NCBI RefSeq assembly: GCF_024519435.1
Contig: NZ_JALJRZ010000012.1
Span: forward strand, 62,001 to 126,000
DNA from: Terrabacter sp. Ter38
GTDB lineage: Bacteria; Actinomycetota; Actinomycetes; Actinomycetales; Dermatophilaceae
Direction of reading: 5' to 3'
DNA length: 64,000 bases
The notes under the pieces are model-generated. The model did not search any database. It saw nothing but the letters and a program-made list of their open reading frames with translations, and was not told the origin of the DNA. Within the stretch, counting starts at the first letter, position 1; every line of letters starts with the position of its first letter. Made by a program: the position numbers and the translations under genes. Below are positions 1,093-35,540 of this stretch, piece after piece.

Positions 1093-2493
1093 TCAGGAGT
1101 CGACCGCGGCGGCGGCCCGGTCGAAGGCCGTGGTGTCGAGCGCGGTGACGAGGACTGCGGCGGCCCACGAGGGCACGGCCCGGTCCGTCACGGCTGTGGC
1201 CTGGCGCACCACCAGGACACAGCCACGCGTCGCCAGCTCGGCGATCAGGTCACTCGTCGCGGCATCGTCGGGCGTGCCCACCTCGACGTAGCCGACGTCG
1301 GGGCTCTGCGCCGCCCACTCGAGGTCGGCGACGGAGCGGGCGACGAGTCCGAGGCTGCGGGCCAGACCCTCCGCCCGGTAGCGCTGAGCGCGCTCCCATC
1401 CACGAGCGGCGGTGACGGCGTCGGGGAAGACGAGGGCGTCGACTCCGCGGCGACCCAGGTTGGCGAAGCTGCGCTCGACCGATGCCTCGACGGCGACCCC
1501 GTATGCCTCTGGGCACGCGTCATCCTCGAGCGCCGGGGCCCACAGTCGGCAGATCAACCCGAATCGCTTGACGAGGGCCGGCTCGGCAGAGCTGCGCAAG
1601 AGCTCTTCACTGCGTCCGTCGGCACGACCGACGTCCACATGTGTGACACCACGTTCGATGGCGCCCGCCAGGAGCCCCCGCAGGCGCTCGGCGCGCTCCG
1701 CCGGCTTGCTCGAGTCGTGCGCCGGGTCGTCCCCGTCGAACGCCTGGGCAGAGAGGACGACTCGTGACAGGCGTCCGGCGGCGGACATCGCCGACGGAAT
1801 CTGGGGACCTGCGGCGTCGACACTGCTGGCGAGGTCGTTCATGAACTCGAGCCACGGGCGCCCGACCGGGTCCGCGACGTCGTCGAACAGGCTCGAGACG
1901 CGCACGTAGTCGCCGAGGGTGTCGACGGTGGCCCGGTACGCGTGGACGTCGTCGGGGCAGCCCTGCGGCACGAACAAGAGCTCACCGAGCGTGCGGCGCA
2001 GCCACGGGGTGACGTGCTCCCGGTCATAGGCTGCCGTCGCGGAGGAGTCTGCCTCCCGCAGCGCGGCCACGCTGAACGCCTCGGCCCCGAGGCCCTCCGG
2101 GACCTGGTCGATGTCCACCCGCCCATACGTGTGGTCGCTGGACTCGAGGGCGGCGAGCAGCTCGTCGACCAGGTCGGCATCGGCGACCGGGTTGTCGCCC
2201 GTCAGACGGACCACACGATCCTCGGGAGCCAGATCTGCGGTGGCCTGGACGAAGCGGCCGAGCACGTCGTCGAGTGAGCCTCGGACGACAGGGATCCTCA
2301 CTGTCGAGAGATGCGCGGCGATGCGTTCGTCGTACTGCTCCTCGCTCGTGGCCACGACCACCTCGTGGCCACCCCGACTCGCTCGCCGGGCGACGAGCTC
2401 GATGAGGGGCATGCCCGCGATCGTGAGCATGGCCTTGCCCGGCAGACGGGAGGAGTTGAGACGTGACTGGATGACGACGCGGGTGCGCGGCAC
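1093..2493 (-). CDS. SpsF-type cytidylyltransferase fused to an aldo/keto-reductase-like domain (candidate CMP-pseudaminate synthetase)
   Basis: Residues 1-225 form a nucleotidyltransferase of the SpsF/COG1861 type, with a basic SRLNSSRLPGK loop near the N-terminus and RLTGDN at about 96-101. In a pse locus lacking another cytidylyltransferase this is the likely CMP-Pse synthetase. Residues 240-466 resemble an aldo/keto reductase, shorter than the usual 300 residues. The catalytic Asp appears kept (about 287) and a Lys is present, but the Tyr position reads Asp (about 292) and the His position reads Pro (about 357), so this half is probably not a normal reductase. GTG 2493 is chosen over TTG 2508 because GGAGG lies just before it. 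pseG lies 33 bases upstream on the same strand. Confidence 0.8.
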   Translation of the reverse strand: MPRTRVVIQSRLNSSRLPGKAMLTIAGMPLIELVARRASRGGHEVVVATSEEQYDERIAAHLSTVRIPVVRGSLDDVLGRFVQATADLAPEDRVVRLTGDNPVADADLVDELLAALESSDHTYGRVDIDQVPEGLGAEAFSVAALREADSSATAAYDREHVTPWLRRTLGELLFVPQGCPDDVHAYRATVDTLGDYVRVSSLFDDVADPVGRPWLEFMNDLASSVDAAGPQIPSAMSAAGRLSRVVLSAQAFDGDDPAHDSSKPAERAERLRGLLAGAIERGVTHVDVGRADGRSEELLRSSAEPALVKRFGLICRLWAPALEDDACPEAYGVAVEASVERSFANLGRRGVDALVFPDAVTAARGWERAQRYRAEGLARSLGLVARSVADLEWAAQSPDVGYVEVGTPDDAATSDLIAELATRGCVLVVRQATAVTDRAVPSWAAAVLVTALDTTAFDRAAAAVDS

Positions 2494-2526
2494 GGTGGGA
2501 ACCTCCAAGGTGGTGTGGACGACAGG

Positions 2527-3567
2527 CTAGCGACGGCGCGCGACCGCACCGAGAAGTGCATCCGCCACCCGGGACCGACCCAGCCCGTCCACGAGGGCCA
2601 TGCCGCGCTCTGAGAGGGTCGTGCACCGGCCCGGGTCACCCATGAGGTCGGCCGCTGCCGCGACCGCAGTGGCACGTGCGGCCGGGTCGTCGCGCAGCTC
2701 CGAGAGGTGTCCGAAGGGTACGGCCAGGCCTTGCTCCGTGACGGCTTCGTACCCCGGAGCCTGGTTGTCCACGACACACACGAGCAGCGACGGCAGGCCC
2801 AGGCAGAGGAACTCCCAGACCGAGCTTCCGGCCGCCGTCACGGCCAGGTCGCAGGTCGCGGCCAGGCGGGCCAGGTCGGGCGTCGGCGACACCACGTCGA
2901 GACGTTGGCCCGGTCCGATGCTCACGGCATCGAGAGCGTCGGCCACCTCCTGGCGCGCAGCGACCGCGACGATGTCGACAGCGCGCCCGGTGGCCAGTAG
3001 GAGCGGCACGACCACGGGTGCCGCGGCGTACGGGTCCGATCCGCCGAAGACCGCGAGCACTCGCGGAGGGCTGCCGTTCATGCTGCGGGGGGACGCCGGT
3101 CGATGTCGGAGCACCTCGTCGCGGAAGAGGGCGTAGTCGAGGCCGAGCAGCTGTCGCTCGCGGGGGACCCGCGCAAGAGGTCGGGCCCCGAAGTTCTGGT
3201 CGAGGTAGAGGTCTGCCTCATGGCCGCCGCCGAACGTGTCGTCGAGCACGGACAGAGCCACGATGTCCGCGGCGCCCAGGGCGGCCGCGATCCGGCTGTC
3301 TAGGTGGTACCCGTCCAGCACCATGGCGTCGATGCCTCGGTGCGACGCCTCGGCTGCGAGTGCGTCCGGGTCCACGGGTGCGGGGAGGACGGCGAACCCG
3401 CGCGCCTCGACCTGCTTCTGCAGCCACGGCACCCCAGTGATCTCGCCCCAGATGGTCACCTGTGCCCCACGCGCCGTCAGCTCGTCTCCGAGGGCGAGGC
3501 AGCGCACGACGTGTCCGGTGCCCGTCGCAGGGTGGGCGTCGCAGCGCAAAGCGATGTGGGCCGGCAT
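2527..3567 (-). CDS. pseG: PseG, UDP-2,4-diacetamido-2,4,6-trideoxy-beta-L-altropyranose hydrolase
   Basis: The 346-residue GT-B-fold protein starts with the PseG/SpsG signature, an N-terminal R-x-D followed by GTGHVVRC at 16-23; His19 matches the essential His of Campylobacter PseG. The enzyme removes UDP from the bis-acetamido altrose sugar, the fourth step of the Pse pathway, giving the free sugar for PseI. It leads a two-gene minus-strand operon with the cytidylyltransferase fusion. No clear Shine-Dalgarno precedes the ATG; a CACACT box ends 6 bases before it, so a leaderless message is possible. Confidence 0.9.
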   Translation of the reverse strand: MPAHIALRCDAHPATGTGHVVRCLALGDELTARGAQVTIWGEITGVPWLQKQVEARGFAVLPAPVDPDALAAEASHRGIDAMVLDGYHLDSRIAAALGAADIVALSVLDDTFGGGHEADLYLDQNFGARPLARVPRERQLLGLDYALFRDEVLRHRPASPRSMNGSPPRVLAVFGGSDPYAAAPVVVPLLLATGRAVDIVAVAARQEVADALDAVSIGPGQRLDVVSPTPDLARLAATCDLAVTAAGSSVWEFLCLGLPSLLVCVVDNQAPGYEAVTEQGLAVPFGHLSELRDDPAARATAVAAAADLMGDPGRCTTLSERGMALVDGLGRSRVADALLGAVARRR

Positions 3568-3758: not shown

Positions 3759-4748
3759 GTGAGCATTCTCGAAGGGTCGTCGATCCTCGTCACAGGTGGG
3801 ACCGGGTCCTTTGGCAAGGCGTTCATCCGCGAGGTGCTCGACAACCACAACCCCAAGCGGGTCATCATCTACAGCCGTGACGAGCTGAAGCAGTGGGAGG
3901 TTCGTCAGCTGTTCAACGACGACCCACGCCTGCGCTGGTTCATCGGTGACGTCCGTGACCTACAGCGTCTGCGCCGGGCCATGCACGGCACCGACTACGT
4001 CGTCCACGCCGCCGCCCTGAAGCAGGTCGACACGGGCGAGTACAACCCCCACGAGTTCGTCAAGACGAACGTCCTGGGCAGCCAGAACGTCATCGAGGCC
4101 TCCATCGACGCCGGTGTCAAGAAGGTCGTCGCGCTCTCGACCGACAAGGCCTCGTCGCCGATCAACCTCTACGGCGCGACCAAGCTCACGGCGGACAAGC
4201 TCTTCATCCTCGGCAACCACTACGCCGCCCAGTACCCGTCGCGGTTCGCCGTCGTGCGCTACGGCAACGTCACGGGCTCACGCGGTTCGATCATCCCGAA
4301 GTTCCGTGCCCTGCACGAGGCGGGGGAGTCGCTGCCGATCACCGACCTGCGCTGCACGCGCTTCCTCATCACCCTGCCCGCGGCCGTCCAGATGGTGCTC
4401 GACACGTTCGCCCTCATGCAGGGCGGTGAGCTCGTCGTGCCCCACATCCCCTCGCACCTGGTCACCGACCTCGCTCAGGCGATCGCCCCCGGTGCCAAGA
4501 TGCACGACATCGGCCTGCGCCCGGGCGAGAAGCTCCACGAGGAGATGATCAGCCCCGAGGAGGGCCGCCGCGCCATCATGATCATGGACGGCAAGTACTA
4601 CGTGCTCGAGCCGGAGCTGGCGACGTGGGGCTATGTCCCGCGCACCGACGGCGAGCCCGTGCCCGACGGCTTCCACTGCGCCTCCGACAAGAACGACCTG
4701 TGGATCGGCGCCGACGACATCCGCAAGATGCTCGAGGCGGGTATCTGA
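3759..4748 (+). CDS. pseB: PseB, UDP-N-acetylglucosamine 4,6-dehydratase (inverting)
   Basis: The 329-residue extended SDR has the Rossmann motif GGTGSFGKAF, a YSRDELKQ segment and the YGATK active site of FlaA1/PseB proteins. It converts UDP-GlcNAc to the 4-keto-6-deoxy-L-idose derivative with C5 inversion, the committed step to pseudaminic acid. The GTG start at 3759 has AGGAGG at 3746-3751. The stop is one base before the pseC start, so the two are co-translated. The 191-base region to divergent pseG holds a weak TAATCT box at 3660-3665 but no convincing operator. Confidence 0.93.
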   Translation: MSILEGSSILVTGGTGSFGKAFIREVLDNHNPKRVIIYSRDELKQWEVRQLFNDDPRLRWFIGDVRDLQRLRRAMHGTDYVVHAAALKQVDTGEYNPHEFVKTNVLGSQNVIEASIDAGVKKVVALSTDKASSPINLYGATKLTADKLFILGNHYAAQYPSRFAVVRYGNVTGSRGSIIPKFRALHEAGESLPITDLRCTRFLITLPAAVQMVLDTFALMQGGELVVPHIPSHLVTDLAQAIAPGAKMHDIGLRPGEKLHEEMISPEEGRRAIMIMDGKYYVLEPELATWGYVPRTDGEPVPDGFHCASDKNDLWIGADDIRKMLEAGI

Positions 4749-4749
4749 G

Positions 4750-5877
4750 GTGATCCCCTACGGACGCCAGTCGGTCAACGAGGAGGACATCGAGGCCGTC
4801 GCCACGGTCCTTCGGGGTGACTGGCTCACCACCGGCCCGACCGTCACCGCCTTCGAGAAGGCGCTGGAGCAGCTGAGCGGCGCCACCCGGGTCGTGAGTG
4901 CCACGAGTGGTACGGCCGCCCTGCACATCGCGTACGCCGCGGCCGGCGTTGGTCGTGGTGACGAGGTCGTGACGACGCCGATGACGTTCGTGGCCACCGC
5001 CTCGTGCGCCGTCGCCCTCGGTGCCGAGGTGCGTTTCGTGGACGTCGAGGAGGACACGGCAAACATCGACCCGATCGCACTCGACGCCGCCGTGACGGAC
5101 CAGACCAAGGTCATCGCCGGCGTCGACTACGCCGGTCATCCCATCGAGATCGACGCGATCAACGAGACCGCGCGCCGCGTCGGCGCACTCGTCGTCGAGG
5201 ACGCCGCCCACTCGATCGGGTCGACGTACAAGGGACGACCCGTCGGCTCGCTCGCCGATCTCACGACGTTCTCCTTCTTCCCGACGAAGAACATGACGAC
5301 AGCCGAGGGGGGCGCCGTCGCCACCCTGGACGCCGACCTGGGCGAGCGCGCGCACCGGTTCCACTTCATCGGGCTCGTGCGCGACCGCGACCAGATGCGC
5401 TACCCCGACGAGGGCCCGTGGCACCAGGAGGTGCACGAGTACGGCCTCAACTACCGCCTGCCCGACGTGCTCGCGGCACTCGGCCTGAGCCAGCTCGCGC
5501 GTCTCGAGGCGTTCAAGGCCCGTCGCGCCGCGATCTTCGCGCGCTACCAGGATGGGCTGGCAGGCGTCGACGGCATCCGCCTGCCCACGCAGCGTGACCA
5601 CGTCGACCCGATCTGGCACCTCTATCCGCTGCGGGTGCTGGGCGGCCGCCGGCGTGAGGTCTTCGACGCCATGCGCGCCGATGGTGTCGGCGTCCAGGTC
5701 AACTACATCCCCGTCTACTGGCACCCGCTCTTCGAGGACCTCGGTTTCAAGCGGGGCATGTGCCCGAACGCCGAGACGTTCTACGCCGAGGAGCTGTCGC
5801 TGCCGATGCACGCCGAGCTGACCGACGACCAGGTCGACCGGGTCATCGACGCCGTGCGCACCGCTGTCGGAGGCTGA
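4750..5877 (+). CDS. pseC: PseC, UDP-4-amino-4,6-dideoxy-N-acetyl-beta-L-altrosamine transaminase
   Basis: The 375-residue DegT/DnrJ/EryC1-family PLP aminotransferase begins IPYGRQSVNEEDI, the usual PseC start. The PLP lysine lies in FFPTKNMTT and is followed by GG; VEDAAHSIG is the cofactor-binding segment. It transfers the glutamate amino group to C4 of the PseB product. GTG 4750 is chosen because it directly follows the pseB stop and matches the family's usual N-terminus. The GGAGG near its 3' end (5869-5873) serves as ribosome site for the next gene. Confidence 0.93.
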   Translation: MIPYGRQSVNEEDIEAVATVLRGDWLTTGPTVTAFEKALEQLSGATRVVSATSGTAALHIAYAAAGVGRGDEVVTTPMTFVATASCAVALGAEVRFVDVEEDTANIDPIALDAAVTDQTKVIAGVDYAGHPIEIDAINETARRVGALVVEDAAHSIGSTYKGRPVGSLADLTTFSFFPTKNMTTAEGGAVATLDADLGERAHRFHFIGLVRDRDQMRYPDEGPWHQEVHEYGLNYRLPDVLAALGLSQLARLEAFKARRAAIFARYQDGLAGVDGIRLPTQRDHVDPIWHLYPLRVLGGRRREVFDAMRADGVGVQVNYIPVYWHPLFEDLGFKRGMCPNAETFYAEELSLPMHAELTDDQVDRVIDAVRTAVGG

Positions 5878-5881
5878 GCCC

Positions 5882-6982
5882 GTGCACCACGCGAACCACT
5901 TCTACGGTCATGCCCACATCATGGCCCGCTATGTGGGGCTCGAGCACCCGCCGAGGATCTGGGGCTACCTCCAGCACGGGTGGAACATGCACGACGGTTT
6001 CGCCGTCGGCACGGTGTTCACCCCGCAGTACCCCAAGTTCGTCTGGTCCGAGGCCTGCGCTCGTCGCGGGTGGGCGGCTGGACTGCGCAACTACATGGTC
6101 GTGGCGGCCCCGTGGCTCTACCTGCTGGAGCTCGAGCGCCAGCATGAGTGGCTCGCTGCCGCTCCGCCCCGCGAGGGGACGATCGTCTACCCCTTTCACG
6201 GCTGGGAGGGGCAGCAGGTCCTCGGGAGCCACATGGCATACATCGAGGAGGTGAAGGCGGCCGAGGGTGACGTGCCCATCACCGCCTGCCTCCACTGGAA
6301 CGAGTACGACAACCCGAAGGTCCGCCGCGAGTACGAGTCCGCTGGTGTCCGGGTGGTCACGCACGGCCAGCGTGGCTATCTCTGGCAGGACACCGACGTC
6401 GCGTTCCTCTACCGGCAGCTCCACGAGATGCGTGGCCACCGCCGGGTCGTGAGCAACCGCATGAGCAGTGCCATCCTGTATGCCGCGTCGGCCGGAGTCG
6501 AGGTGGGCGTCTATGGCGACCCCATGGCACTCGAGTCGGACCACGCGGTGCTCGGTGGCGTCGGGAAGCCACGGCGGATCTGGCCCGAGATGCACCAGTT
6601 CTCGGTGCCGATGGACTACGCCGCGCAGATCGCGAACCTGGAGCTGGGGGCCGACGAGATGCTGCTGCCCGAGGAGGTCATCGACGCCTTCGGCTGGGCC
6701 CAGGAGATCGCTGTGCCGGGTCCCCCTCCGCCCGCACCGTCGCTCGAGGAGGACGAGTCCGTCTTCACGCGCCGCCGGCGGCGACAGCACCGCTCCGAGA
6801 GTCACCGCGCACCCGGAGGCGGAGAGCCCTCCGACCTCCTGGTGTCCGTCGACGCGTCGGTCGAGGACGCCGACTTGGCCGCGGAGCCCACTCAGAAGTC
6901 GGCAGAGCCGAGGAGCGACGGGTCCACGTCGGGATCGGCACAGGCGCAGAGCTCCGCGACAGGAGCCGACGACGAGGGCTAG
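5882..6982 (+). CDS. Unassigned protein of the Pse locus, candidate GT-B-like glycosyltransferase
   Basis: I do not recognise this 366-residue protein with certainty. It starts HHANHFYGHAHIMARY, carries WGYLQHGWN and YPFHGWEG segments, and has a C-terminal stretch RVVSNRMSSAILYAAS leading to GVYGDP. That layout (His-rich N-lobe loop, then a Ser/Asn-rich donor-site helix) recalls GT-B polysialyltransferase and CDP-glycerol transferase folds. The last 100 residues are Pro-, Ser- and charge-rich and probably disordered. GTG 5882 has GGAGG 8 bases upstream inside pseC, so it belongs to the pseB-pseC operon. A role in moving Pse or an adjoining residue onto the chain is inferred from position only. 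Confidence 0.5.
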   Translation: MHHANHFYGHAHIMARYVGLEHPPRIWGYLQHGWNMHDGFAVGTVFTPQYPKFVWSEACARRGWAAGLRNYMVVAAPWLYLLELERQHEWLAAAPPREGTIVYPFHGWEGQQVLGSHMAYIEEVKAAEGDVPITACLHWNEYDNPKVRREYESAGVRVVTHGQRGYLWQDTDVAFLYRQLHEMRGHRRVVSNRMSSAILYAASAGVEVGVYGDPMALESDHAVLGGVGKPRRIWPEMHQFSVPMDYAAQIANLELGADEMLLPEEVIDAFGWAQEIAVPGPPPPAPSLEEDESVFTRRRRRQHRSESHRAPGGGEPSDLLVSVDASVEDADLAAEPTQKSAEPRSDGSTSGSAQAQSSATGADDEG

Positions 6983-7064: not shown

Positions 7065-8141
7065 TCACACGAGGTCCCACGACATCGGAGTGCCGCGCTC
7101 GACGTCGCGCGTGAACCGCTTGGACTCGACGAGCGCGAAGTCGTCGGGCGACAAGCCGTTCGCGGGTCGGATCGAACGGACGTTGGTGGCGGTCACGGGG
7201 TCACCCGCCTTGACGTCCTCGACGACGAAGAGCGACCGACGGAAGCGCAGCCCCTCGCGCTCGGCCTCACGCGCGCCGATGCGCGGCTCGCCGAGGGCCT
7301 GCCACGCGACCTTGGTCTCGCGAACCAGGGCGGCCAGCTCGTCGGGCTCGAGGGAGAAGGCCGAGTCCACCCCGCCCTCCTCGCGTGACATCGTCACGTG
7401 CTTCTCGACGAGCACCGACCCGAAGGCGACCGATGCGACGGCGGCCCCGATACCCATCGTGTGGTCGGAGAGGCCCACGGGGACGCCGAAGGCCTCACGC
7501 ATCACGGGGATGCCGCGCAGGTTGGAGGACGCAGGGTCGGCGGGATAGCTGACGGTGCAGGAGAGCAGCATGACCTGGCGGTTGCCGGTGGAGTGTGCCG
7601 CGTCGACGGCGGCGGCGATCTCGCCGACCGACGCCATGCCCGTGGAGATGATGAGCGGCTTTCCGGTCTGTGCCGCCAGGCGGATGAGCGGGAGGTCGAC
7701 GATCTCGGACGAGGCGATCTTGTAGGCCGGGACCTCCAGCCCCTCGAGGAACTCGACGGCCGTGGGGTCGAAGGGGCTGGAGAAGGCGAGGATGCCCAGC
7801 TCTCGCGCCAGGTCGAAGATCGGCTGGTGCCATTCCCAGGGGGTGTGCGCCTCCTCGTACAGGTCGTAGAGGCGTCGCGAGCCCCACAGCGCGTGCCCCT
7901 CGGAGAGGCGGAACTCGGGCTTGTCGACATCGATCGTGATGGTGTCGGCGGTGTAGGTCTGCAGCTTGATGGCGTGGGCTCCGGCCGCAGCGGCCATCCG
8001 CACGATCTCGAGGGCCTTCTCGAGACTGCCGTCATGGTTGCCGGACATCTCGGCGATGATGAACGGCGGGACGTCGGGTCCGACGGGCGTGGAGCCGATC
8101 GTCAGGGACGTCGTGGCTGGTGTCTCTACCGGGGTGCTCAT
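7065..8141 (-). CDS. pseI: PseI, pseudaminic acid synthase
   Basis: The 358-residue protein has the NeuB/PseI TIM barrel (IIAEMSGNHDGS near residue 28, KLQTYTADT, KIASSE, SDHTMG, EKHVTM) and a C-terminal SAF domain with FRRSLFVVEDVKAGD. It condenses 2,4-diacetamido-2,4,6-trideoxy-L-altrose with phosphoenolpyruvate to give pseudaminic acid. The SGNHDGS form and overall length fit PseI better than sialic or legionaminic synthases. It starts 6 bases after pseH and shares its transcript. Confidence 0.93.
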   Translation of the reverse strand: MSTPVETPATTSLTIGSTPVGPDVPPFIIAEMSGNHDGSLEKALEIVRMAAAAGAHAIKLQTYTADTITIDVDKPEFRLSEGHALWGSRRLYDLYEEAHTPWEWHQPIFDLARELGILAFSSPFDPTAVEFLEGLEVPAYKIASSEIVDLPLIRLAAQTGKPLIISTGMASVGEIAAAVDAAHSTGNRQVMLLSCTVSYPADPASSNLRGIPVMREAFGVPVGLSDHTMGIGAAVASVAFGSVLVEKHVTMSREEGGVDSAFSLEPDELAALVRETKVAWQALGEPRIGAREAEREGLRFRRSLFVVEDVKAGDPVTATNVRSIRPANGLSPDDFALVESKRFTRDVERGTPMSWDLV

Positions 8142-8639: not shown

Positions 8640-8705
8640 GCGGCCCTCCTCATGAGGATGCCGCGGGCTCCAGGGGGCCGCGGCAGGGGGTGGGGGATTC
8701 GTTGT

Positions 8706-8712
8706 TAGACTA
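8706..8712. promoter_or_regulatory. Overlapping, symmetric -10 boxes for divergent pseH and acyl carrier protein operons
   Basis: The 7-base TAGACTA reads TAGACT (8706-8711) on the plus strand and TAGTCT (8712-8707) on the minus strand, both fitting the TANNNT -10 pattern. No good -35 is visible on either side. Leaders of about 30 bases (plus) and 60 bases (minus) would each contain a ribosome binding site. Confidence 0.45.
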
Positions 8713-8746
8713 CCGGACGCCCCAACCCCCAGCCCAAGGCGGAAAC

Positions 8747-8998
8747 ATGAGCGCACTGAGCCGTGACGCGATCCGGACGATGATGGCCGAGGTCCTTCAG
8801 GCCCAGGGCAAGATGATGCCCGAGGATGACGCTGCGAACCTCGAGACCATCGGCTTCCGCTCGCTCGACTTCTCGGAGCTCGCCCTGCGGGTGGAGGACG
8901 AGATCGGCGACGAGCTCAACTTCGATGCTCCGGAGCTTCGACAGATCGCCACGATCTCGGACGTGCTCGACTTCCTCGAGCAGCTGCAAGCCGCGTGA
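8747..8998 (+). CDS. Dedicated acyl carrier protein
   Basis: The 83-residue acidic protein has the four-helix ACP pattern, with the carrier serine at 39 in GFRSLDF (the usual DSL reads RSL). The adjoining helix FSELALRVEDEIG is the expected recognition helix. The protein would carry an acyl group on a phosphopantetheine arm. ATG 8747 has a weak purine-rich site (AAGGCGGAA). Its TGA overlaps the GTG of the next gene, tying it to the acyl-activating enzyme. It is clearly not the primary fatty-acid ACP by context, since no fab genes are nearby. Confidence 0.88.
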   Translation: MSALSRDAIRTMMAEVLQAQGKMMPEDDAANLETIGFRSLDFSELALRVEDEIGDELNFDAPELRQIATISDVLDFLEQLQAA

Positions 8999-10212
8999 GC
9001 GCGGGAGCTGGCGTCCCTGCCGGCGCCGCCAACCGCATCATCACGCGGGGCTTCGACGGCCGGTGGGACGAGCTCGAGCCGCTGGACGTCCCCGACTCCT
9101 CGGCCGTTCTCGTGCGGGACAACCACGACGCGGTGCGTGCGGTGTGGGCCGCCGCGTCCGGGGATCGTGAGGTCCTCGTCGCGTCGAGGTCACGCGTCAC
9201 GCCCGACCTCGCCCTGGACCTCCGCGACGCCGGCCTGGCGATCGTCGACGGCGCCGACGTCCAGCCTCCCACCGTCCACCGCGATCCCGTGCCCGGCCGC
9301 GTCTGGCTGCTGACGAGCGGGAGCACCGGCCGACCGAAGCGGGTCTCCCACACGCTCGACTCGCTCACGACGGTCGCCGGTGAGCAGCCGCGGCGGACGT
9401 GGCTCTGCCCGTACGCCCACGGCGCGTATGCCTGGTGGCAGGTCGTCACGCTGAGCATCAGCCAGCCGGGACAGGACGTCCTGTTCATCGAACCTGACGA
9501 GCTGGACACCTGGCCCGCGCGCGCCCTCGAGGTCGGGGTGACCGCAGCCTCGGGGACGCCGACCTTCTGGCGCCAGGCCCTCTACCGCGACCCGGAGAGC
9601 ATCGCGGCGCTGCCGCTCGAGCAGGTGACCCTCGGCGGGGAGCCCGTGGACCAGACGATCCTGACCCGGCTGACCGAGATGTTCCCGTCGGCCCGTGTCT
9701 CCTGGATCTATGCGTCGAGCGAGGCAGGCGCCACCATCGCCGTCCATGACGGCCGCGCCGGCTTCCCCCAGGAGTGGCTCGGCCGCGAGCTGGACGGGCG
9801 AGCCGGCCTGTCCGTCGACGACGGCGAGCTGCTCATCGCCTCGCCCAAGCGCGGCGAGGGCATCGACCGTGTGCTGCGCACCGGCGACCGGGTCGAGATC
9901 GTCGACGGCCGGGTCCTGATCACCGGGCGCCTCGCGTCGGACGAGATCAACGTCGGAGGCGCCAAGGCGTCGGCCTCGGCCGTGCGGGACGTGCTCCAGT
10001 CGCACCCGGCCGTGGTCTGGGCCGCGGTGCGCGGTCGCAAGGCACCGATCGTCGGGAGCATCGTCACCGCTGACGTGGTCCTCTCCGGCGAGGCCACCGC
10101 TGCCGAGCTGACGGCGTGGTGCGCCGCGCGTCTCCCCGACTACTCCGTGCCTCGACGGGTGCGGTTCCTGGACACGATCCCGATCAAGGAGACTCTGAAG
10201 AGCGATGTCTGA
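8995..10212 (+). CDS. ANL-superfamily acyl-activating enzyme (acyl-ACP ligase candidate)
   Basis: The 405-residue protein has the adenylate-forming P-loop LTSGSTGRPKR at about 105-115, an ASSEAG segment, RTGDRVEI and a C-terminal lysine motif IPIKETLK. It is shorter than typical acyl-CoA synthetases (500 or more residues), having lost much of the N-terminal subdomain, as in stand-alone adenylation enzymes that load a carrier protein. The start GTG overlaps the ACP stop by four bases. Likely role: activating a carboxylic acid and loading it on the neighbouring ACP. The acyl substrate cannot be told from the sequence. Confidence 0.82.
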   Translation: MSAGAGVPAGAANRIITRGFDGRWDELEPLDVPDSSAVLVRDNHDAVRAVWAAASGDREVLVASRSRVTPDLALDLRDAGLAIVDGADVQPPTVHRDPVPGRVWLLTSGSTGRPKRVSHTLDSLTTVAGEQPRRTWLCPYAHGAYAWWQVVTLSISQPGQDVLFIEPDELDTWPARALEVGVTAASGTPTFWRQALYRDPESIAALPLEQVTLGGEPVDQTILTRLTEMFPSARVSWIYASSEAGATIAVHDGRAGFPQEWLGRELDGRAGLSVDDGELLIASPKRGEGIDRVLRTGDRVEIVDGRVLITGRLASDEINVGGAKASASAVRDVLQSHPAVVWAAVRGRKAPIVGSIVTADVVLSGEATAAELTAWCAARLPDYSVPRRVRFLDTIPIKETLKSDV

Positions 10213-10954
10213 CAAGACCGAACCCATCGGCCCCGCAACGGTCGTCGTCGTCTCAGGAGGCTCGCGCGGACTCGGCCTGGCGATCGTCGAGGACATCCTC
10301 GCGAAGGGCGCCAAGGTGGCGGCATTCGCGCGCACCGTCACCCCGGAGCTCGAGGCCGTCGCTGCCGCCAACCCCGAGCGGGTGCACGCAGCGTCTGTCG
10401 ACGTCACCGACGTCAAGGCCATCAACGCCTTCCTTAAGGAGGCGGAGAGCCGTCTCGGTCCGATCGACGCGCTCGTCAACAACGCGGCGATGGGCCAGGA
10501 CAGCCTGCACGTGCACACCTCTCCCGAGCAGATCGCCAAGATCGTCGAGACGAACCTGACGGCCCCGCTGCTGCTGGCCCGGGCGGTGCTGCGCCGCATC
10601 ATGGCCAAGGGCAACCGCGGCCGGATCGTCATGGTCACCTCCGTCTGCGCCCAGCGCGGCTACTCCGGTCTCGTCGCGTACTCCGCCACCAAGGGCGGTC
10701 TCGACAGCGCGATGCGGACCCTTGCCCGCGAGATGCACGGTCGCGTGCTCGTCAACAGTGTCGCGCCCGGGTTCTTCGCGTCCGAGATGAGCTCCGTGCT
10801 CGGCCAGACGCAGCTCGACACGATCACGAGGCGTACGCCGTCGAACCGTCTCGTCGAGCCGGACAACATCGTGCCGGTCGTCAGCATGCTGCTGTTCGAC
10901 GACACCAACATCAACGGCCAGGTGCTCACCGTCGACGGCGGCAACAGCATCTGA
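10205..10954 (+). CDS. FabG-like short-chain dehydrogenase/reductase
   Basis: The 249-residue classical SDR has the cofactor motif GGSRGLG (about 18-24), NNAAMG, a catalytic Ser in MVTSVCAQ and YSATK at about 158. SRG-type spacing and overall length fit NADPH-dependent 3-oxoacyl-ACP reductases. It overlaps the ANL gene by 8 bases. In this cassette it may reduce a 3-oxoacyl group to 3-hydroxyacyl on the ACP, or act on the sugar; the choice is open. Confidence 0.85.
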   Translation: MSDKTEPIGPATVVVVSGGSRGLGLAIVEDILAKGAKVAAFARTVTPELEAVAAANPERVHAASVDVTDVKAINAFLKEAESRLGPIDALVNNAAMGQDSLHVHTSPEQIAKIVETNLTAPLLLARAVLRRIMAKGNRGRIVMVTSVCAQRGYSGLVAYSATKGGLDSAMRTLAREMHGRVLVNSVAPGFFASEMSSVLGQTQLDTITRRTPSNRLVEPDNIVPVVSMLLFDDTNINGQVLTVDGGNSI

Positions 10955-11427
10955 TGCTGTCCCGGGCGGACCGGCTGGGGCGGGCCGTCCGCGACCACCC
11001 CGTCGTCATCGAGGCCCGCGCCGGACATCGGTGCGACGGAGGCGTCCACTCCTACCTCGGCGACGGACGCGTCGTGTGCTGGGACGTCCCGGCCCCGGAT
11101 GCGGGACGCCGTGGCACCGATCCGGACGGCTGGCTCGGGGTGGCGGTCGACGCGGAGATTCGCGGTCACACGCCATCCCCGCACGTCGTCGCGCGCTGGG
11201 GCCTGGAGACCACAGCACCGGAGCAGTTCTGGGAGATGTGGTGCGCCACCGAGGTGCTGGCCAAGCTGGCCGACGTACCGATGGTCCTCCTGGCGCGCCA
11301 AGGGCCCGTCATCTCAGGTCCGGTGCGGCGGGGTCAGCTCGAGGTGCACTGGGTGGCGCGCCACGTGGGCGACGTGGTGGTGGCCCACGGAATGGCGTGG
11401 GCCACCACCACGCGCGACGTCACTTGA
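10954..11427 (+). CDS. Small protein with 4'-phosphopantetheinyl-transferase-like motifs
   Basis: The 157-residue protein starts within the stop codon of the SDR gene (TGATG) and ends the cassette. I see two short motifs in the order and rough spacing of phosphopantetheinyl transferases: GVAVDAE at 62-68 (compare GVDIE) and WCATEVLAK at 96-104 (compare W-x-x-K-E-A-x-x-K). The first Lys of the second motif reads Thr99, so activity is uncertain. Position beside a dedicated ACP supports the idea that it installs the ACP arm. An alternative is a hotdog-like or unknown acyl-handling protein. The 3' end overlaps the convergent methyltransferase-like gene by 8 bases. Confidence 0.5.
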   Translation: MLSRADRLGRAVRDHPVVIEARAGHRCDGGVHSYLGDGRVVCWDVPAPDAGRRGTDPDGWLGVAVDAEIRGHTPSPHVVARWGLETTAPEQFWEMWCATEVLAKLADVPMVLLARQGPVISGPVRRGQLEVHWVARHVGDVVVAHGMAWATTTRDVT

Positions 11428-14285: not shown

Positions 14286-15359
14286 ATGCCCCCCGTGACG
14301 CCCTCCTCGACACGCGTCGTCCTCTCGGGCGTCCGCAGCGTCACCCACCTGGTGTATGCCGCCTCCTGGCTTCGTGACGTCGTCGCGGCGGTCGAGGGCG
14401 ACACCGGTCCAGGCGGGGCCGTCGAGGTCGTGGTCCTCGACGTGGGCTCGGGCTTCGGTCGGGCGACGGTGGGGGAGGCCGAGGTCCGCGCGTATCTCCC
14501 ACGGCATCCGCGACTGACGGTGACCACGACGCCGGAGGACGAGCACTGGCGCACGTCGAAGGGCCTCGACCGGGTGCTGCTCTCGGTCGGCGTCCCTGGG
14601 ACGCGGGCGTGGGCCCGCTTGTTCGTGCGTGGGCGCGGGCGCCGCCCCGGGGTCGTCGTGGTCGACGAGGGGATCGGTTCGTTCGGCAACCTGCGCAGTC
14701 GACGCCAGGCCTACCGACGTCAGGGCGGCTCGGCGGCCCGCGCCGCAGTCCGCGCCACCGTCGTGAGCGTCGGTGGGTGGGTGCTCACCGAGGTCCACTG
14801 GTCCCTGTACGAGCGCACGGGAACGGCGTGGCGCGTCCGGGAGGAGGTCGCCACGGAGTTCCGCCGGGCCCTGTCCGGTCCGGTGCCCGAGGCCGACCAG
14901 GCGATCTACCTGACCCAGCCGTGGCCCGACCTCGGGGTGATGTCCGAGTCCGCCTACCTCGATCACCTCCGGTCGGTGCGCGACGAGTGCGCGGCCGTCG
15001 GTGTCCGGCTCGTCCTGCGGCCACATCCGAGCGAGGACGTGTCGCGCTACTCCGGCTTCGAGGTGCTCACGAGCTCGGTCCCCGCGGAGCTCGCGCGGGA
15101 GGTCGTCGACGCCGCGGTGGTCATCGGTTCGAACAGCACCGCGCTGCTCAACCTCGCTGCGGTGCACGGCACACCGGCCGTTCGGGTCACCGCGTCCGAG
15201 CTGCGCGGTCTCGAGGCCGCGCTCACGACGCGACAGCGCGCCCTTCTCGACGCCTTCCTGCCGCCGGCCGTCGACGTTGACGGCGTGGGGGCCGCGCTGC
15301 GGCAGGTCGTGCGGCCGCCCCGGGGAGAGGCAGGTCCGCGCCCTGCTCGAGGTGGGTGA
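14286..15359 (+). CDS. Polysialyltransferase-like GT-B protein, candidate Pse transferase
   Basis: The 357-residue protein shows features of the bacterial polysialyltransferase/GT52-like group: a C-terminal half with LRPHPSED at about 245 and VIGSNSTALLNLA at about 280, the His/Pro and Ser/Thr motifs that bind the CMP donor in such enzymes. The N-terminal half has alternating strands and a basic central helix. It pairs with the GT2 gene, 5 bases upstream. In a locus making CMP-pseudaminate this is a strong candidate for the nonulosonate transferase; that assignment is inferred. Confidence 0.65.
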   Translation: MPPVTPSSTRVVLSGVRSVTHLVYAASWLRDVVAAVEGDTGPGGAVEVVVLDVGSGFGRATVGEAEVRAYLPRHPRLTVTTTPEDEHWRTSKGLDRVLLSVGVPGTRAWARLFVRGRGRRPGVVVVDEGIGSFGNLRSRRQAYRRQGGSAARAAVRATVVSVGGWVLTEVHWSLYERTGTAWRVREEVATEFRRALSGPVPEADQAIYLTQPWPDLGVMSESAYLDHLRSVRDECAAVGVRLVLRPHPSEDVSRYSGFEVLTSSVPAELAREVVDAAVVIGSNSTALLNLAAVHGTPAVRVTASELRGLEAALTTRQRALLDAFLPPAVDVDGVGAALRQVVRPPRGEAGPRPARGG

Positions 15360-21749: not shown

Positions 21750-22541
21750 TCACGCCTCCTGCTCGGTGGTCGTGCGCGGGCGGACGGTGCGGCGCTCGAT
21801 GCGCTTCAGGGCGGCCTGTTCGGGGGTCAGCGGCAGGACGCGTTGCACGAAGATGCCGGGCAGGTGGATCTCGTCGGGGTCGAGCTGACCGGGTTCGACG
21901 AGCTCCTCGACCTCGGCGACCGTCACGCGGCCGGCCATGGCGCACAGCGGGTTGAAGTTGCGGGCGGACTGGTTGAAGACGAGGTTGCCGTGCCGGTCGC
22001 CCTTCGCGGCCCGCACGAGCCCGAAGTCGGTCGTGATGGCTCGCTCGAGGACGAAGGTCTTCGTCTCGCCCATCCACTCGAGGTCCTGGGTCTGCTTCGG
22101 CGGCGACGCCACGGCGACGTTGCCGGAGTCGTCGTAGCGCCAGGGCAGTCCGCCGTCGGCGATCTGGGTGCCGACGCCCGTCATCGTGAAGAACGCGCCG
22201 ATGCCCGACCCGCCAGCGCGCAGGCGCTCGGCCAGCGTGCCCTGGGGGGTCAGCTCGACCTCGAGCTCGCCGGAGAGGTACTGCCGCTCGAACTCCTTGT
22301 TCTCGCCGACGTAGGAGCTGACCATGCGGCGGATCCTCTTGTCGCGCAGCAGGATGCCGAGGCCCCAGTCGTCGACGCCACAGTTGTTCGAGACGGCCTC
22401 GAGGTCGGTGAGGCCGGCGTCGTGGATCGCCGCGATGAGGACGGAGGGGATGCCGCAGAGGCCGAAGCCGCCGACCGAGAGCGACATTCCGTCGCTGATC
22501 CCGGCGATGGCCTCCTGGGGGGTGGAGACGACTTTGTCCAT
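21750..22541 (-). CDS. scoA: 3-oxoacid CoA-transferase subunit A
   Basis: The 263-residue alpha subunit starts [12 protein letters not shown] and has the CoA-binding GGFGLCGIP loop at about 24-32, [12 protein letters not shown] and [11 protein letters not shown], matching ScoA/PcaI. It forms the hetero-oligomer with ScoB. ATG 22541 is preferred over upstream starts because a TAGAGT box (minus strand, 22554-22549) ends 7 bases before it with no ribosome site, which fits a leaderless message. Confidence 0.92.
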
Positions 22542-22712
22542 GGGTCGGACTCTATCCGCGCCGTCACGACCGGGTGCCGTGGGGTCGTCCCACAGGGCCG
22601 CGCCGACCTGTGGTCGCCGAGCACGTATGCCGTCGAGCGCGCGGGAAGCGAATGACAGTCGTGTCATTCATGACCCAGGATGAAGAACACCTCTGTAATT
22701 CGTCGGAGCGCC

Positions 22713-24660: not shown

Positions 24661-25389
24661 TCAGGCACTCTCGCGGGCGTCGACGGTGACACCCTCCGAG
24701 GCGAAGCGGTCCGCGAGGTCGTCGCGCTGACCGCGTACGAGCACGACCGACCCGTCGACCGCCCACGCCGCGAGCGCTCGGCGCAGCACCGGCTCGAGGG
24801 TCCCGGCGAGCACGACGCGGGGCGACGTGCCCCACCCGACGTCAGGCACGACGACGGCGCCGTATGCCGTGTCGACGCCGTCCGCGGCCAGGGCGACGTC
24901 GCCCGGCTCGGGGTCCGACATCGGCGAGAAGACGTCGCCGTGGGTGGCCAGCTCGCGGGCCTCGTCGACTGCGCCACCCGCCTCGTCGGCCTCGGGGTGC
25001 CGACGGGCCAGGGCCGGCAGCGAGACGAGCACGGCGTCACCTCCGTGGCCGGCGGCGGCAGCGGGGGAGCCGGTGACGAGCACGTCGGCCCCGGTGGCCG
25101 CGTCACCGACGACGACCGTCGCGCCGACCGACCACGTCGCGAGGGCCCAGTAGAGCGAGCGCCAGTGCGCCGGGAGGTCGAGGCCGACCGTGGTGCCGGG
25201 GCCTGCCGCGGCGTCGTCCTGGAGGAGGTTCGCAGCCTTGGCGACCCAGTTGGCGAGGACGCGTGCGCTGAGCTCGATGCGCTCGCCCGCGGTGGGTCCC
25301 GGCTCGTCGTCGTACCACGTCAGGCGCGGTCGACCCGGGTCCGAGGCGACCATCCGCGCGAGCACGTCGGCCGGCAGCAGGTCGCCCAT
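24661..25389 (-). CDS. TIGR03089-family protein, truncated acyl-activating-like
   Basis: The 242-residue protein begins MGDLLPADVLARM and resembles the N-terminal part of AMP-forming ligases, but has no adenylation P-loop. This matches the actinobacterial TIGR03089 family of unknown function, which usually sits beside LCP-family genes as here. Its ATG overlaps the LCP stop (TGATG), so it is translationally coupled. No catalytic role can be assigned. Confidence 0.8.
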   Translation of the reverse strand: MGDLLPADVLARMVASDPGRPRLTWYDDEPGPTAGERIELSARVLANWVAKAANLLQDDAAAGPGTTVGLDLPAHWRSLYWALATWSVGATVVVGDAATGADVLVTGSPAAAAGHGGDAVLVSLPALARRHPEADEAGGAVDEARELATHGDVFSPMSDPEPGDVALAADGVDTAYGAVVVPDVGWGTSPRVVLAGTLEPVLRRALAAWAVDGSVVLVRGQRDDLADRFASEGVTVDARESA

Positions 25390-26543
25390 CAGCTGTTCTT
25401 CGCTCCTTCGACCGTGGTGCCGGCCGGGGGCTCGGTCAGCGGCTCGTCGTCCTTGAGGGCCTTGAAGAGCGCCTTGGCGCGCTCGGTGTCCCACTTGACG
25501 GCGAGGGCGCCGGCGCTCGTGCGGTAGGCGAGGTCGGAGGTCGGCACGGACAGGGAGAGGCCCTCGTCGTTGCTGACGGCCCGCATCGCCTGGAGCACCC
25601 GGACGGCGTCCGTGATCCCCGTGTCCTGGCCGACGGCGAGGCCCGCGGCGGAGGCGTCGGCGAAGCTCTTGTAGCGCCAGGGGAGGAGCACGGTCGAGGG
25701 CGTCGCCGCCTTCTTCATGAGCGCCCCGAGGAACTGGCGCTGCCGGGCGGCGCGCCCGATGTCGCCCAGCGGGTCCTCGTAGCGGGAGCGGACGTAGCCG
25801 AGGGCGTTGCCACCGTCGAGCGTCTGGCAGCCCTTCTGGAGGTCGATACCGGCCTTCTTGTCCTTCATGTTGCGCGGCACGCAGAGGTCGACCCCGCCGA
25901 CGCTGTCGACGACGGCGGCGAAGCCGCCCAGCCCGATCTCGACGTAGCCGTCGACGTGGATGCCGGTGACCTGCTCGACGGTCTCGGTGAGCAGCTTGGG
26001 TCCGCCGATGGAGTACGCGGCGTTGATCTTGTTGGAGCCGTGTCCCGGGATGGGCACGTAGGAGTCGCGGGGCAGCGAGACCATCACCGGCTTGCCGCCG
26101 CTCTCGGAGACGTGGACGAGCATGATCGTGTCGGTGCGGTTCCCGGCCGCGTTGCCCGTCGCGTACTTCTTGCGCTGCTCCTTGGTCAGTCCCTCACGGC
26201 TGTCGGAGCCCACGAGGAGGTAGTTGTAGCCCGACGTGTCGGTGGGCCGCTGGCCGTCGGGAACGTTGTCGACCTTGTTGACGGCCCCCCACGCCTGCAT
26301 CGGCACCCAGACCATGAAGCCGATCCAGGCCAGGAGCAGCACGAGCAGCACGACGAGGGCGATGCGCCCGCGGCGCCAGCGGTAGCGGGGTTCCCGCGTC
26401 GGGGTGTCCGGTCCGGCGTCCCTCTCGTCGGCACGCGAGGGGGTGACCACCCCGCCTGCGGGCCGCTTGGGGCGACGACGGGTGTCGACGACGTAGGCGT
26501 CGTCCTGGCCGGAACGACGCGGAGTGCTCGGATCAGTCGGCAT
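25389..26543 (-). CDS. LytR-CpsA-Psr (LCP) family glycopolymer ligase
   Basis: The 384-residue protein has a charged cytoplasmic tail of about 58 residues, one membrane helix (about 60-83) and an extracellular LCP domain with LLVGSDSREG, RTDTIMLVHV, SLPRDSYVPIPG and KINAAYSIGG. These hold the conserved Asp/Arg residues that bind the polyprenyl pyrophosphate. The family transfers wall teichoic acid-like or arabinogalactan-like polymers from lipid carrier to peptidoglycan, so it could attach the polymer made by the Pse locus. It overlaps the upstream DUF2304 gene by 11 bases. Confidence 0.92.
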   Translation of the reverse strand: MPTDPSTPRRSGQDDAYVVDTRRRPKRPAGGVVTPSRADERDAGPDTPTREPRYRWRRGRIALVVLLVLLLAWIGFMVWVPMQAWGAVNKVDNVPDGQRPTDTSGYNYLLVGSDSREGLTKEQRKKYATGNAAGNRTDTIMLVHVSESGGKPVMVSLPRDSYVPIPGHGSNKINAAYSIGGPKLLTETVEQVTGIHVDGYVEIGLGGFAAVVDSVGGVDLCVPRNMKDKKAGIDLQKGCQTLDGGNALGYVRSRYEDPLGDIGRAARQRQFLGALMKKAATPSTVLLPWRYKSFADASAAGLAVGQDTGITDAVRVLQAMRAVSNDEGLSLSVPTSDLAYRTSAGALAVKWDTERAKALFKALKDDEPLTEPPAGTTVEGAKNS

Positions 26544-33250: not shown

Positions 33251-35363
33251 TTGATCCGTCGCCATGTCCGGGCGTCCGCCCTCGTCTCCACTCTCGTCGT
33301 GGCCGTGCTGGCAGTGGGTCTGGCACCCGCGCAGGCCCATCCCGGCCACGGGTCCGACCCGGTGCACGATCGGCGCGGCGGGGCCGGAAAGGCCCTGGCG
33401 CAACTCGATGTACGGGATGCGCCGGGCTCCTCGATCGACGGGGGCCGTACGCCCGCGTCGTCGCCGAAGCCCTCGGCAGTCCTGGAGGCGAACGCGAGCA
33501 CGTGCGACACGATGACCGGCTCGAGCATCCCGTTGGCCGACCGTGCCATCGCGCGCGCGTCCTTCCCGGGAGCGGCGAGGATCGTCGTGCAGCGCCAGCG
33601 TAACGAGGGCACATGGCGGACTGTCGGGACGATCGTCGGGGAGCAGGGTCGGCTGGGGGACATGTCGATCAACCCCCGTGCGGACTTCACGTACAGGTGG
33701 ATCGCCTATGCCGCCTCGGGCGCGGTGCAGAGGTCGTGCCAGGACGCGAGCTTCACGAGCGCGTCGAGCAGCGACGGATGGGGCATGGCCGACGCCGTTC
33801 TGGCCGGCGAAGGGGGGTCTCTTCCAGCAGGCTCCTGAGGAGTGGGCCGGCGACCAGATCGCGAGCGGGATCTGGATGACGCCCAGCTACTCACCGGACG
33901 GTCGGCTGCTCGCGGCCACCATCGTGAACCCCGAGACCGGTCGGAGCGTGATCGAGGTGCGTCGGGCCCGGACCCGGGCCGTGGTCTTCACGGTCGACCT
34001 CGGCCCCGACGTCGCGCCTGCCGACAGCGCCTTCTCGCCCGACGGTCAGACGCTGGCCTACACGCGCTACGACGCCGCTACCGGTGAGCCGCTGGGCCTC
34101 GGGCTCGTCGACGTCCTCGGCGCCCACACCACGCGCGTCCTCACCTTCGACGTCCCCGTCGCCGAGCCGGCATGGCGGGCGGACGGGACCAGCCTCGTCG
34201 TCACGGCGTTCGACACCGCCGAGGGGTTGTCCGTCGTCTGCGTGACCTGCACGAAGTCCACCCCCATCAACGGAACGTCCGGCGGCTACTCGCCGGAGGT
34301 GGCGCCCGACGGGACGATCTGGTTCATCAGCTCGTCCGGAGCCGCCAGCCTGCTGCGCAAGCGCGTCGCCAACGGCACCGCGAGCACCGTCCGTTCCTCG
34401 ACGACGGTTGTCTACTCAAGGCCGCGCCAGACACCGGACGGCACCATCTACGTCGGGACAGACACCCCCTCCGAGTCGGACCCGGCACAGTCGTACTTCG
34501 AGGTGGTCAGCGTCTCCCCGGCGGGCGCCGCCTCGGACGGCTGGACGCCGGTCCAAGGCTGGCAGTCACTCGGCCGCGCCTTCTACGGCTACGACATGCG
34601 TCAGGTCCCCAGTCCGGGGACGGCACAGTTCACGGGCAACGGCAACGACGACCTCGTGGCCCGAGACGGGTCCGGCAACCTGTGGGCGTACGCCGCCGAC
34701 GGCGGACGGGTGGCCGGTCGGGTCCTCGTCGCCAGCGGATGGCAGGGCATGAACGCGGTGGTGGCAGCCGGCGACCTGACGAGGGACGGCCGCGCGGACG
34801 TCGTCGCCCGCGACGGGTCGGGACGGCTCTGGCTGTATCGCGGACTCGCGTCTGGGAAGCTCGCGGCCCGCACCGGCCTCGGCTCCGGATGGAACGGTTA
34901 CACCATCCTCGGGGTGGGGGACTGGAACGGCGACGACAACGCCGACCTCGTCGCTCGGGACGGTGCCGGGACCTTGTGGCTCTACCCGGGCAACGGACGC
35001 GGCGGGATCTCGGTGCGCACGAGGATGGGCAGCGGCTGGGGCGGAATGACCGCCCTCGTGGCCAGCGGTGATATCGACTTCGACGCCCGCGCCGACCTCA
35101 TCGCGAGGGACCGGGCCGGCGTGCTGTGGCTGTACCCCGGTAACGGCGCCACCGGATTCCTCTCACGCCGGCAGCTCGGCACCGGTTGGGGCTCGTTCAC
35201 CGCGATGCTCGCGAGTGAGATCACCAACGGCAGGGCGGACCTCTGGGTGCGCACGTCGTCGGGCCAGCTGATCTCGTGGGACATCGGAGGGGACGGCGCG
35301 ATCATCTCCAACACCCGCACCCCTCACGGTTACGGATGGAACGGCATGCTTCTGGCGTCCTGA
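33251..35363 (+). pseudogene. Secreted PD40/VCBS-repeat protein, frameshifted in a G6 run
   Basis: A TTG start at 33251 with AAGGGG upstream gives a signal peptide (cut near AQA, 25) and about 190 residues, stopping at 33838. The matching continuation (LFQQAPEEWAG onward) is in another frame. The tandem paralogue shows the same junction intact (GIFQQG), so the break sits in GGGGGG at 33812-33817; removing one G, or adding two, repairs it. The restored 703-residue protein has a TolB/PD40-like propeller (TPSYSPDGRLLA) and C-terminal VCBS blades with D-x-N-x-D loops. Either a decayed copy, a run-length sequencing error or phase variation. Confidence 0.8.
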
Positions 35364-35540
35364 GCCCCTCGAGCGGGGCAGCTCAGGCCCGCTGGACGGC
35401 ATACTCGGGCTCGGCCGCCCGGCCACGGGTGCGGGAACGTGCAGTTCTGTGCCGACACGACACCACATGTCGCCCGTGTCCTCCAGGCTCCGGTCGGCCG
35501 CTCGGGGACGCGGCCTCCACACCTCACGAAAGGCAGCCAC

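Follow-up and report, generated by a model that had tools for sequence, protein, structure and literature searches.

Trios consisting of an acyl carrier protein (ACP), a 3-oxoacyl-ACP reductase and an AMP-dependent synthetase have already been listed in pseudaminic acid (Pse) islands of Aeromonas, as orf1-orf3 of the group II flagellar island, and in strain AH-3 the trio lies downstream of pseH (PMC7874193). In the passages that describe these genes the authors mention only fatty acid synthesis and the channelling of fatty acids and assign no glycan function (PMC7874193). Here we describe a cassette of similar gene content in Terrabacter sp. Ter38, within a 64,000 nt stretch (the window) of contig NZ_JALJRZ010000012.1 from a genome of 4.83 Mb in 54 contigs. 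Four same-strand genes at 8747-11427 encode an ACP, an adenylating enzyme of the ANL family (ANL), a short-chain reductase (SDR) and a protein resembling phosphopantetheinyl transferases (PPTases), here called gene 4. They overlap by 4, 8 and 1 bases and form an operon that faces pseH and pseI. The Aeromonas island differs in also containing luxE and luxC and in having flagellin as its target, and its description in the same passages does not mention a counterpart of gene 4 (PMC7874193). We put at roughly 60% the probability that the Terrabacter cassette supplies Pse synthesis with a special acyl donor, the acyl group being passed by PseH from the ACP to the future N-7 of the sugar.

Several N-acyl groups other than acetyl have been described on Pse. 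A Pse with a 7-(3-hydroxybutyramido) group from S. fredii (Sinorhizobium) appears in the title of a reference in PMC4270759, and passages of PMC9912281 name N-lactyl, 7-N-glyceroyl and 4-hydroxybutyryl Pse. In the open literature we found no enzyme route for hydroxybutyryl, lactyl, glyceroyl or other such N-acyl groups of Pse, and no work dealing directly with ACP-linked acylation of Pse or with the Pse chemistry of actinobacterial walls.

To follow the cassette in other genomes we used samples of 186 genomes from the family Dermatophilaceae, 297 from the order and 396 from the phylum. An ANL orthologue was present in 32 of the 186 family genomes (61-100% identity, E-values of 2.3e-146 or lower; the best match elsewhere was 1.3e-15), and gene 4 was found in exactly the same 32. 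Every one of the 31 family relatives with the cassette has the order ACP-ANL-SDR-gene 4, which excludes chance. All 32 have pse genes. At an E-value of 1e-60 PseI was detected in 39 family genomes, 31 with the cassette and 8 without; two cassette genomes (G175 and G179) carry a full pseI on a separate contig, and in G088 pseI is cut by a contig end. We found pseH beside the ACP gene in 30 of the 31 family relatives and on a separate contig in G179. The distance between pseH and pseI was 1-3 kb in L059, L062 and L064. Second, lone copies of pseI, 65-71% identical, occur at L078, L079 and L080 (G090, G089 and G029); the 20 kb of sequence covered there contained no further counterpart of the pse genes in the window.

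The linkage extends beyond the family. A scan of named genomes retained the best 80 of 147 ANL relatives, in which ANL is present by construction. ACP and SDR were found in 80 of these 80 loci, pseH in 76 (within ~7 kb) and pseI in 70. The four loci without pseH are three Kribbella loci in which the cassette is at most 2.7 kb from a contig end, and L099, from a genome split over contigs. The ten without pseI are these same four, five with 0.2-3.6 kb left downstream, and L162, where pseI was not found in the ~8 kb searched on each side of the cassette. At an E-value of 1e-25 ANL was found 7 times in the order sample and 3 times in the phylum sample; all 3 phylum-sample genomes have both pseI and pseH, and the only matches in the two samples without pse genes nearby were two distant relatives at 42%. 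Linkage of cassette and pse genes is seen in records of Dermatophilaceae, Propionibacteriaceae, Frankiaceae, Nocardioidaceae and Micromonosporaceae, in several gene layouts. In Micromonospora loci pseH is divergent beside the ACP gene though pseI lies elsewhere. These results bear on an earlier note on this DNA, which had described four overlapping ACP, ANL, FabG-like and PPTase-like genes facing pseH-pseI and had proposed a search for the same order beside pseI/pseH in other actinobacteria. Coordinates, Pfam matches of the first three genes, motifs and a 107-base intergenic gap agree with the description, and all 31 family relatives keep the order. Its view that the cassette is tied to pse stands for orthologues (32 of 32 family genomes with pse, 76 of 80 named loci with pseH) but does not extend to distant homologues, which occur without pse in the stretches seen.

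The protein expected to transfer the acyl group is encoded by the first gene across the divergent region, whose start is most likely at 8639, with AGGAGG just upstream and 107 bases to the ACP gene. Since it misses the TIGR03585 cut-off by 0.4 bits we refer to it as PseH-like. Its AlphaFold2 model (pLDDT 96) has a GNAT fold, for which Foldseek placed Helicobacter pylori (Hp) PseH at ranks 3, 9 and 10; the other nearest matches are a spermidine acetyltransferase and a lasso-peptide acetyltransferase. Profile matches in the PDB were Campylobacter jejuni (Cj) PseH (1.9e-11), FdhC in second place (7.6e-6) and Hp PseH (1.4e-5). FdhC is a sugar GNAT that transfers 3-hydroxybutyryl. The window protein shares the GNAT fold and the pathway position of Cj and Hp PseH (TIGR03585) but differs from them in its score below the cut-off, in being a stand-alone gene paired with an ACP cassette, and in an insertion at the P-loop/helix 3.

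We found that this insertion goes with the cassette. The pattern PA[WF] or LAW was matched by 105 of 108 cassette PseH from the family and named loci, sets that overlap so that some genomes enter twice, and the other 3 have close variants. Loop length was counted in the 87 of 108 proteins that could be parsed by pattern, the 21 unparsed being excluded. The segment was 37 residues long in 77 of the 87, and the ten that deviate (30, 35, 36, 47 or 51) likely include some parsing slips. For comparison, the Cj and Hp enzymes each have 30 residues here, FdhC has 32, and four PseH from loci lacking the cassette have 30-33; the insertion is absent from the non-cassette segments compared. A stand-alone PseH-like GNAT is present in 32 of 32 family cassette genomes. 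In the 8 pse loci of the family that lack the cassette, PseH is instead fused to PseG in 7 (L070 and L072-L077), with some of these fusions extending into PseF, and no PseH was detected in the eighth. The phylum sample added ten pse loci in which none of the cassette genes was present; five of them had PseH-like frames, and the segments compared lack the insertion. From this pattern we infer that PseH may be an acyl-ACP-dependent N-acyltransferase. The earlier note had also offered the protein at 5882-6982 as an acceptor-side enzyme. It has no Pfam match, and because homologues (31-35%) occur in three cassette-free pse loci we rejected it as the acyltransferase of the cassette.

The first three cassette genes have the features of an acyl-loading and acyl-modifying unit. 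The ACP is 67-95% identical across the 31 family relatives, and GFRSLDFSELAL is present in all 31. In ANL both the AMP-binding and the AMP-binding_C domain score over their cut-offs, and the catalytic and nucleotide motifs and the A10 lysine, K402, are kept. This enzyme would load an acid onto the ACP. The best profile matches of the ANL alignment were two MenE enzymes; adenylation domains of nonribosomal peptide synthetases (NRPS) were also matched, and DltA stood at about rank 20. The nearest solved structures were not decisive for the substrate. The SDR retains the serine and the YxxxK motif, and its best PDB sequence match was MupS (4yxf, E 2.8e-42), followed by FabG-type enzymes. Against the FabG equivalog TIGR01830 it scored 167 bits, below the cut-off of 298. 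By sequence the SDR is 3-oxoacyl-ACP-reductase-like and not FabG itself, and its predicted role is the reduction of an ACP-bound acyl group. A Pfam scan of 30 open reading frames (ORFs) of the window, which covers 292-48108 in part and leaves the last 16 kb outside, contained no condensing enzyme, in keeping with the earlier remark that no fatty-acid synthesis genes lie around the cassette.

Gene 4 by itself had no match in Pfam, NCBIfam or PDB sequences. An alignment of 41 members has seven invariant positions (D37, D66, E68, W96, E100, K104 and P109), so that a DxE motif (D66, E68) and an E-x3-K motif (E100, K104) are invariant in the 41 sequences. The metal-ligand pattern of PPTases is DxE...E-x3-K. 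That family usually has a lysine just before the glutamate of E-x3-K; in gene 4 the residue preceding this glutamate is another one. Among Pfam families only ACPS (PF01648) had matches in two or more members, weakly and in 4 of 41 (best E 0.11). The AlphaFold2 model has a pLDDT of 90, and its top 11 Foldseek matches were all AcpS or PPTases, with modest scores (E 0.037-0.36, TM-scores 0.27-0.50). The designation PPTase-like draws on the motif and on a predicted fold that resembles PPTases at these modest scores, not on a family score. Since an ordinary AcpS and an Sfp-type enzyme are also encoded in the genome, gene 4 would be its third PPTase, a private one. It evolves fast, with 30-64% identity among family relatives, and in the 80 named loci it was detected by tblastn in 55 and by motif in 58. 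In one draft genome the gene 4 match (L038, G175:C537:1873-2316) holds one internal TAG.

The favoured reading joins these activities into one pathway. Gene 4 or a housekeeping PPTase would attach the phosphopantetheine arm to the ACP, after which ANL would adenylate a small carboxylic acid and load it. The SDR would then adjust the bound acyl group, most simply from 3-oxo to 3-hydroxy. The PseH-like GNAT, altered at the loop that holds CoA, would take the acyl group off the ACP and place it on the 4-amino nitrogen of the UDP-sugar precursor, the nitrogen that becomes N-7 of Pse. With PseG, PseI and PseF acting next, the product would be a CMP-Pse whose N-acyl group is not acetyl, for use in an envelope glycopolymer.

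Our best guess for the acyl group is a hydroxylated C3-C4 acid, of which 3-hydroxybutyryl would be one of several candidates. Replacing one acetyl of Pse5Ac7Ac by C4H6O3 gives a computed mass of 376.148, within 0.01 of the 376.14 Da given for the Pse derivative of Aeromonas AH-3 in passages of PMC7874193. Plasmid searches, which covered plasmids only and not chromosomes, gave no Sinorhizobium match, so 3-hydroxybutyryl Pse may also arise without this ligase. As to the target, a search for flagellin (PF00669) found no match in the Terrabacter genome, while the same search was positive in 4 of 14 control genomes, and flagellin was rejected on this ground. Together with the setting among glycan genes this points to the envelope rather than flagella, and an envelope glycan is the likely target. 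Kribbella walls contain teichuronic or teichulosonic acid, as stated in passages of PMC6113628.

More distant relatives suggest that the trio can work with other partners. ANL homologues of 33-43% identity occur without pse genes in the stretches seen. In the IMG/VR contig L184 (L184:242-3682) a hexapeptide transferase is followed by ACP (44%), ANL (39%), SDR (47%) and gene 4 (34%, E 1.2e-5); the contig also carries an integrase and is probably host DNA at a prophage border. L169 and L084 have ACP-ANL-SDR in the same order as L184 and the window, and among these three L184 alone was shown to have gene 4. Unlike in the window, a hexapeptide transferase replaces PseH in L184, L169 and L084, and by annotation in L170, and no pse genes were found or annotated in the stretches of these four that were examined. 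Rhodobacterales plasmids resemble L084 in having hexapeptide or annotated acyltransferases and no pse genes in the stretch. A plasmid search with the window ACP gave no match. Two Azospirillum megaplasmids, those of 12 records that were read with their annotation, carry pseI, a glycosyltransferase, a small PP protein, a hydrolase, ACP-ANL-SDR, KASIII and flagellin. They share with the window the ACP-ANL-SDR order near pseI and an ANL that is ~40% identical; they differ in adding a condensing enzyme, a second carrier-like protein and a hydrolase, in adjoining flagellin, and in having no gene-4-like product annotated. In the Azospirillum record L168 a GNAT is annotated ~7.5 kb upstream. A trio with varying acyltransferase partners is expected of a donor module that serves different sugar acyltransferases.

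Several observations weigh against a cassette that feeds PseH. The likeness to the Aeromonas island is one of gene descriptions, not of sequences, and isobaric substituents could also account for the Aeromonas mass, such as formyl combined with di-O-methylglyceroyl. In the accessible literature we found no biochemical or glycan data for cassette-bearing strains. The alignment of gene 4 by hhalign with the genome's own AcpS and Sfp-type enzyme was weak, and in 19 of the 80 named loci gene 4 was detected neither by tblastn nor by motif. Named Kribbella make up 15 of these 19, and at least two more (L106 and L142) are cut by contig ends; from the 19 we conclude that the module can do without gene 4. 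G182 (L076) has a PseI 73% identical to that of the window together with a PseG-PseH fusion and no cassette. Kribbella, L112 and L132 have pseH with pseI, ~3-7 kb from the ACP gene, hence pseH is not always the nearest gene, which weakens the case for it as the invariably closest partner. The first Foldseek match of the PseH model is a spermidine acetyltransferase. Hp PseH itself has an atypical P-loop, yet it uses acetyl-CoA as donor on the UDP-sugar 4-amino group, according to passages of PMC4964394, and the insertion is therefore only a hint of ACP use. The distant homologues without pse genes speak against a purely Pse-specific role.

An acyl-ACP could also be made for another part of the envelope polymer, by acylation of a different sugar or by O-acylation, with PseH an ordinary acetyl-CoA enzyme. 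We consider this unlikely. The hexapeptide transferases beside distant cassettes fit such an acceptor, as do the several kilobases between pseH and the cassette in Kribbella and the mere 0.4 bits by which PseH falls short of its cut-off, which also counts against a special PseH. However, in the family the cassette and a stand-alone PseH occur together while cassette-free loci have a different PseH type, and the 30 ORFs scanned included no further sugar acyltransferase family (the neighbourhoods of relatives were not searched). A Dlt-like system, in which ANL would load an amino acid onto the carrier protein for polymer decoration, seems quite improbable: the ANL profile matches do include NRPS adenylation domains and a DltA-type ligase, but two MenE enzymes rank best with DltA only near rank 20, the conserved unit includes a reductase, and no MBOAT (DltB) partner was found among the scanned ORFs, which are a part of those in the window, the rest of the genome not having been searched. 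That the cassette makes an unrelated lipid or metabolite and hitchhikes in the pse locus is very improbable, for while ANL and SDR belong to broad superfamilies and two distant actinobacterial relatives lack pse genes nearby, the linkage recurs across five actinobacterial families in several layouts and in Azospirillum, where pseI lies a few genes ahead.

The remaining pse genes and the divergent region are listed with the cassette in Table 1. Homologues of the pseC-like aminotransferase occur in other pse loci, and the C-terminal part of the pseF-like protein matches PF00248 below its cut-off (E 0.0064). The divergent region contains TTCGTTGTTA[GC]ACTACC at 8698-8714, common to three close relatives (L087, L088 and L089), and this element is a possible candidate promoter. 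An ABC transporter, a GT2 glycosyltransferase and a LytR-CpsA-Psr protein also lie near the cassette. About 10 kb from it, 21750-22667 encodes a CoA transferase subunit (PF01144, E 1.4e-68) that could touch acetoacetate metabolism. Farther along the window are a weak AMP-binding match under its cut-off (24661-25494) and a 4HBT thioesterase-type protein (41347-42297). Two neighbouring FG-GAP/PD40 beta-propeller repeat proteins (33543-37763) lie close to glycan genes.

Table 1. Features of the Terrabacter sp. Ter38 locus, in window positions.
Feature	Position	Strand	Evidence or remark
pseF-like cytidylyltransferase with aldo/keto-reductase-like C-terminal part	1093..2508	-	PF02348 E 2.9e-28
pseG-like UDP-sugar hydrolase	2527..3567	-	TIGR03590 142 bits, below cut-off 153.6
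pseB	3759..4748	+	TIGR03589 442 bits, cut-off 408
pseC-like aminotransferase, start uncertain	4747..5877	+	open frame; named by sequence and position beside pseB
pseI, pseudaminic acid synthase	7065..8141	-	TIGR03586 459 bits, cut-off 340
Stand-alone PseH-like GNAT, insertion at CoA loop	8148..8639	-	TIGR03585 92.7 bits, cut-off 93.1
Divergent intergenic region, pseH / ACP gene	8640..8746		107 bp; putative shared promoter region
Acyl carrier protein, 83 aa	8747..8998	+	PF00550 (PP-binding) E 2.8e-4; attachment serine S39 in GFRSLDF
Short ANL adenylating enzyme, 405 aa	8995..10212	+	PF00501 E 7.8e-16, PF13193 E 6.6e-12
FabG/MupS-like short-chain reductase (SDR), 249 aa	10205..10954	+	adh_short E 8.2e-46; S146, Y159
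Gene 4, very divergent PPTase-like protein, 157 aa	10954..11427	+	motif and predicted fold
Polysialyltransferase-like protein, candidate polymer glycosyltransferase	14310..15359	+	PF07388 E 8.8e-5, 22.6 bits against cut-off 23.3

Our data suggest a wider proposal, which we hold at even odds: that there is a carrier-protein-dependent branch of Pse synthesis, in which a dedicated ACP, ligase, reductase and private PPTase serve a re-tooled PseH, and that this cassette acts as a portable module providing acyl donors to GNAT or hexapeptide sugar acyltransferases in actinobacteria and proteobacteria. The cassette offers a concrete, testable route to non-acetyl Pse and a genomic marker for strains that possibly make unusual Pse. 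Since several named Kribbella strains from a culture collection carry it, their wall chemistry can be checked directly.

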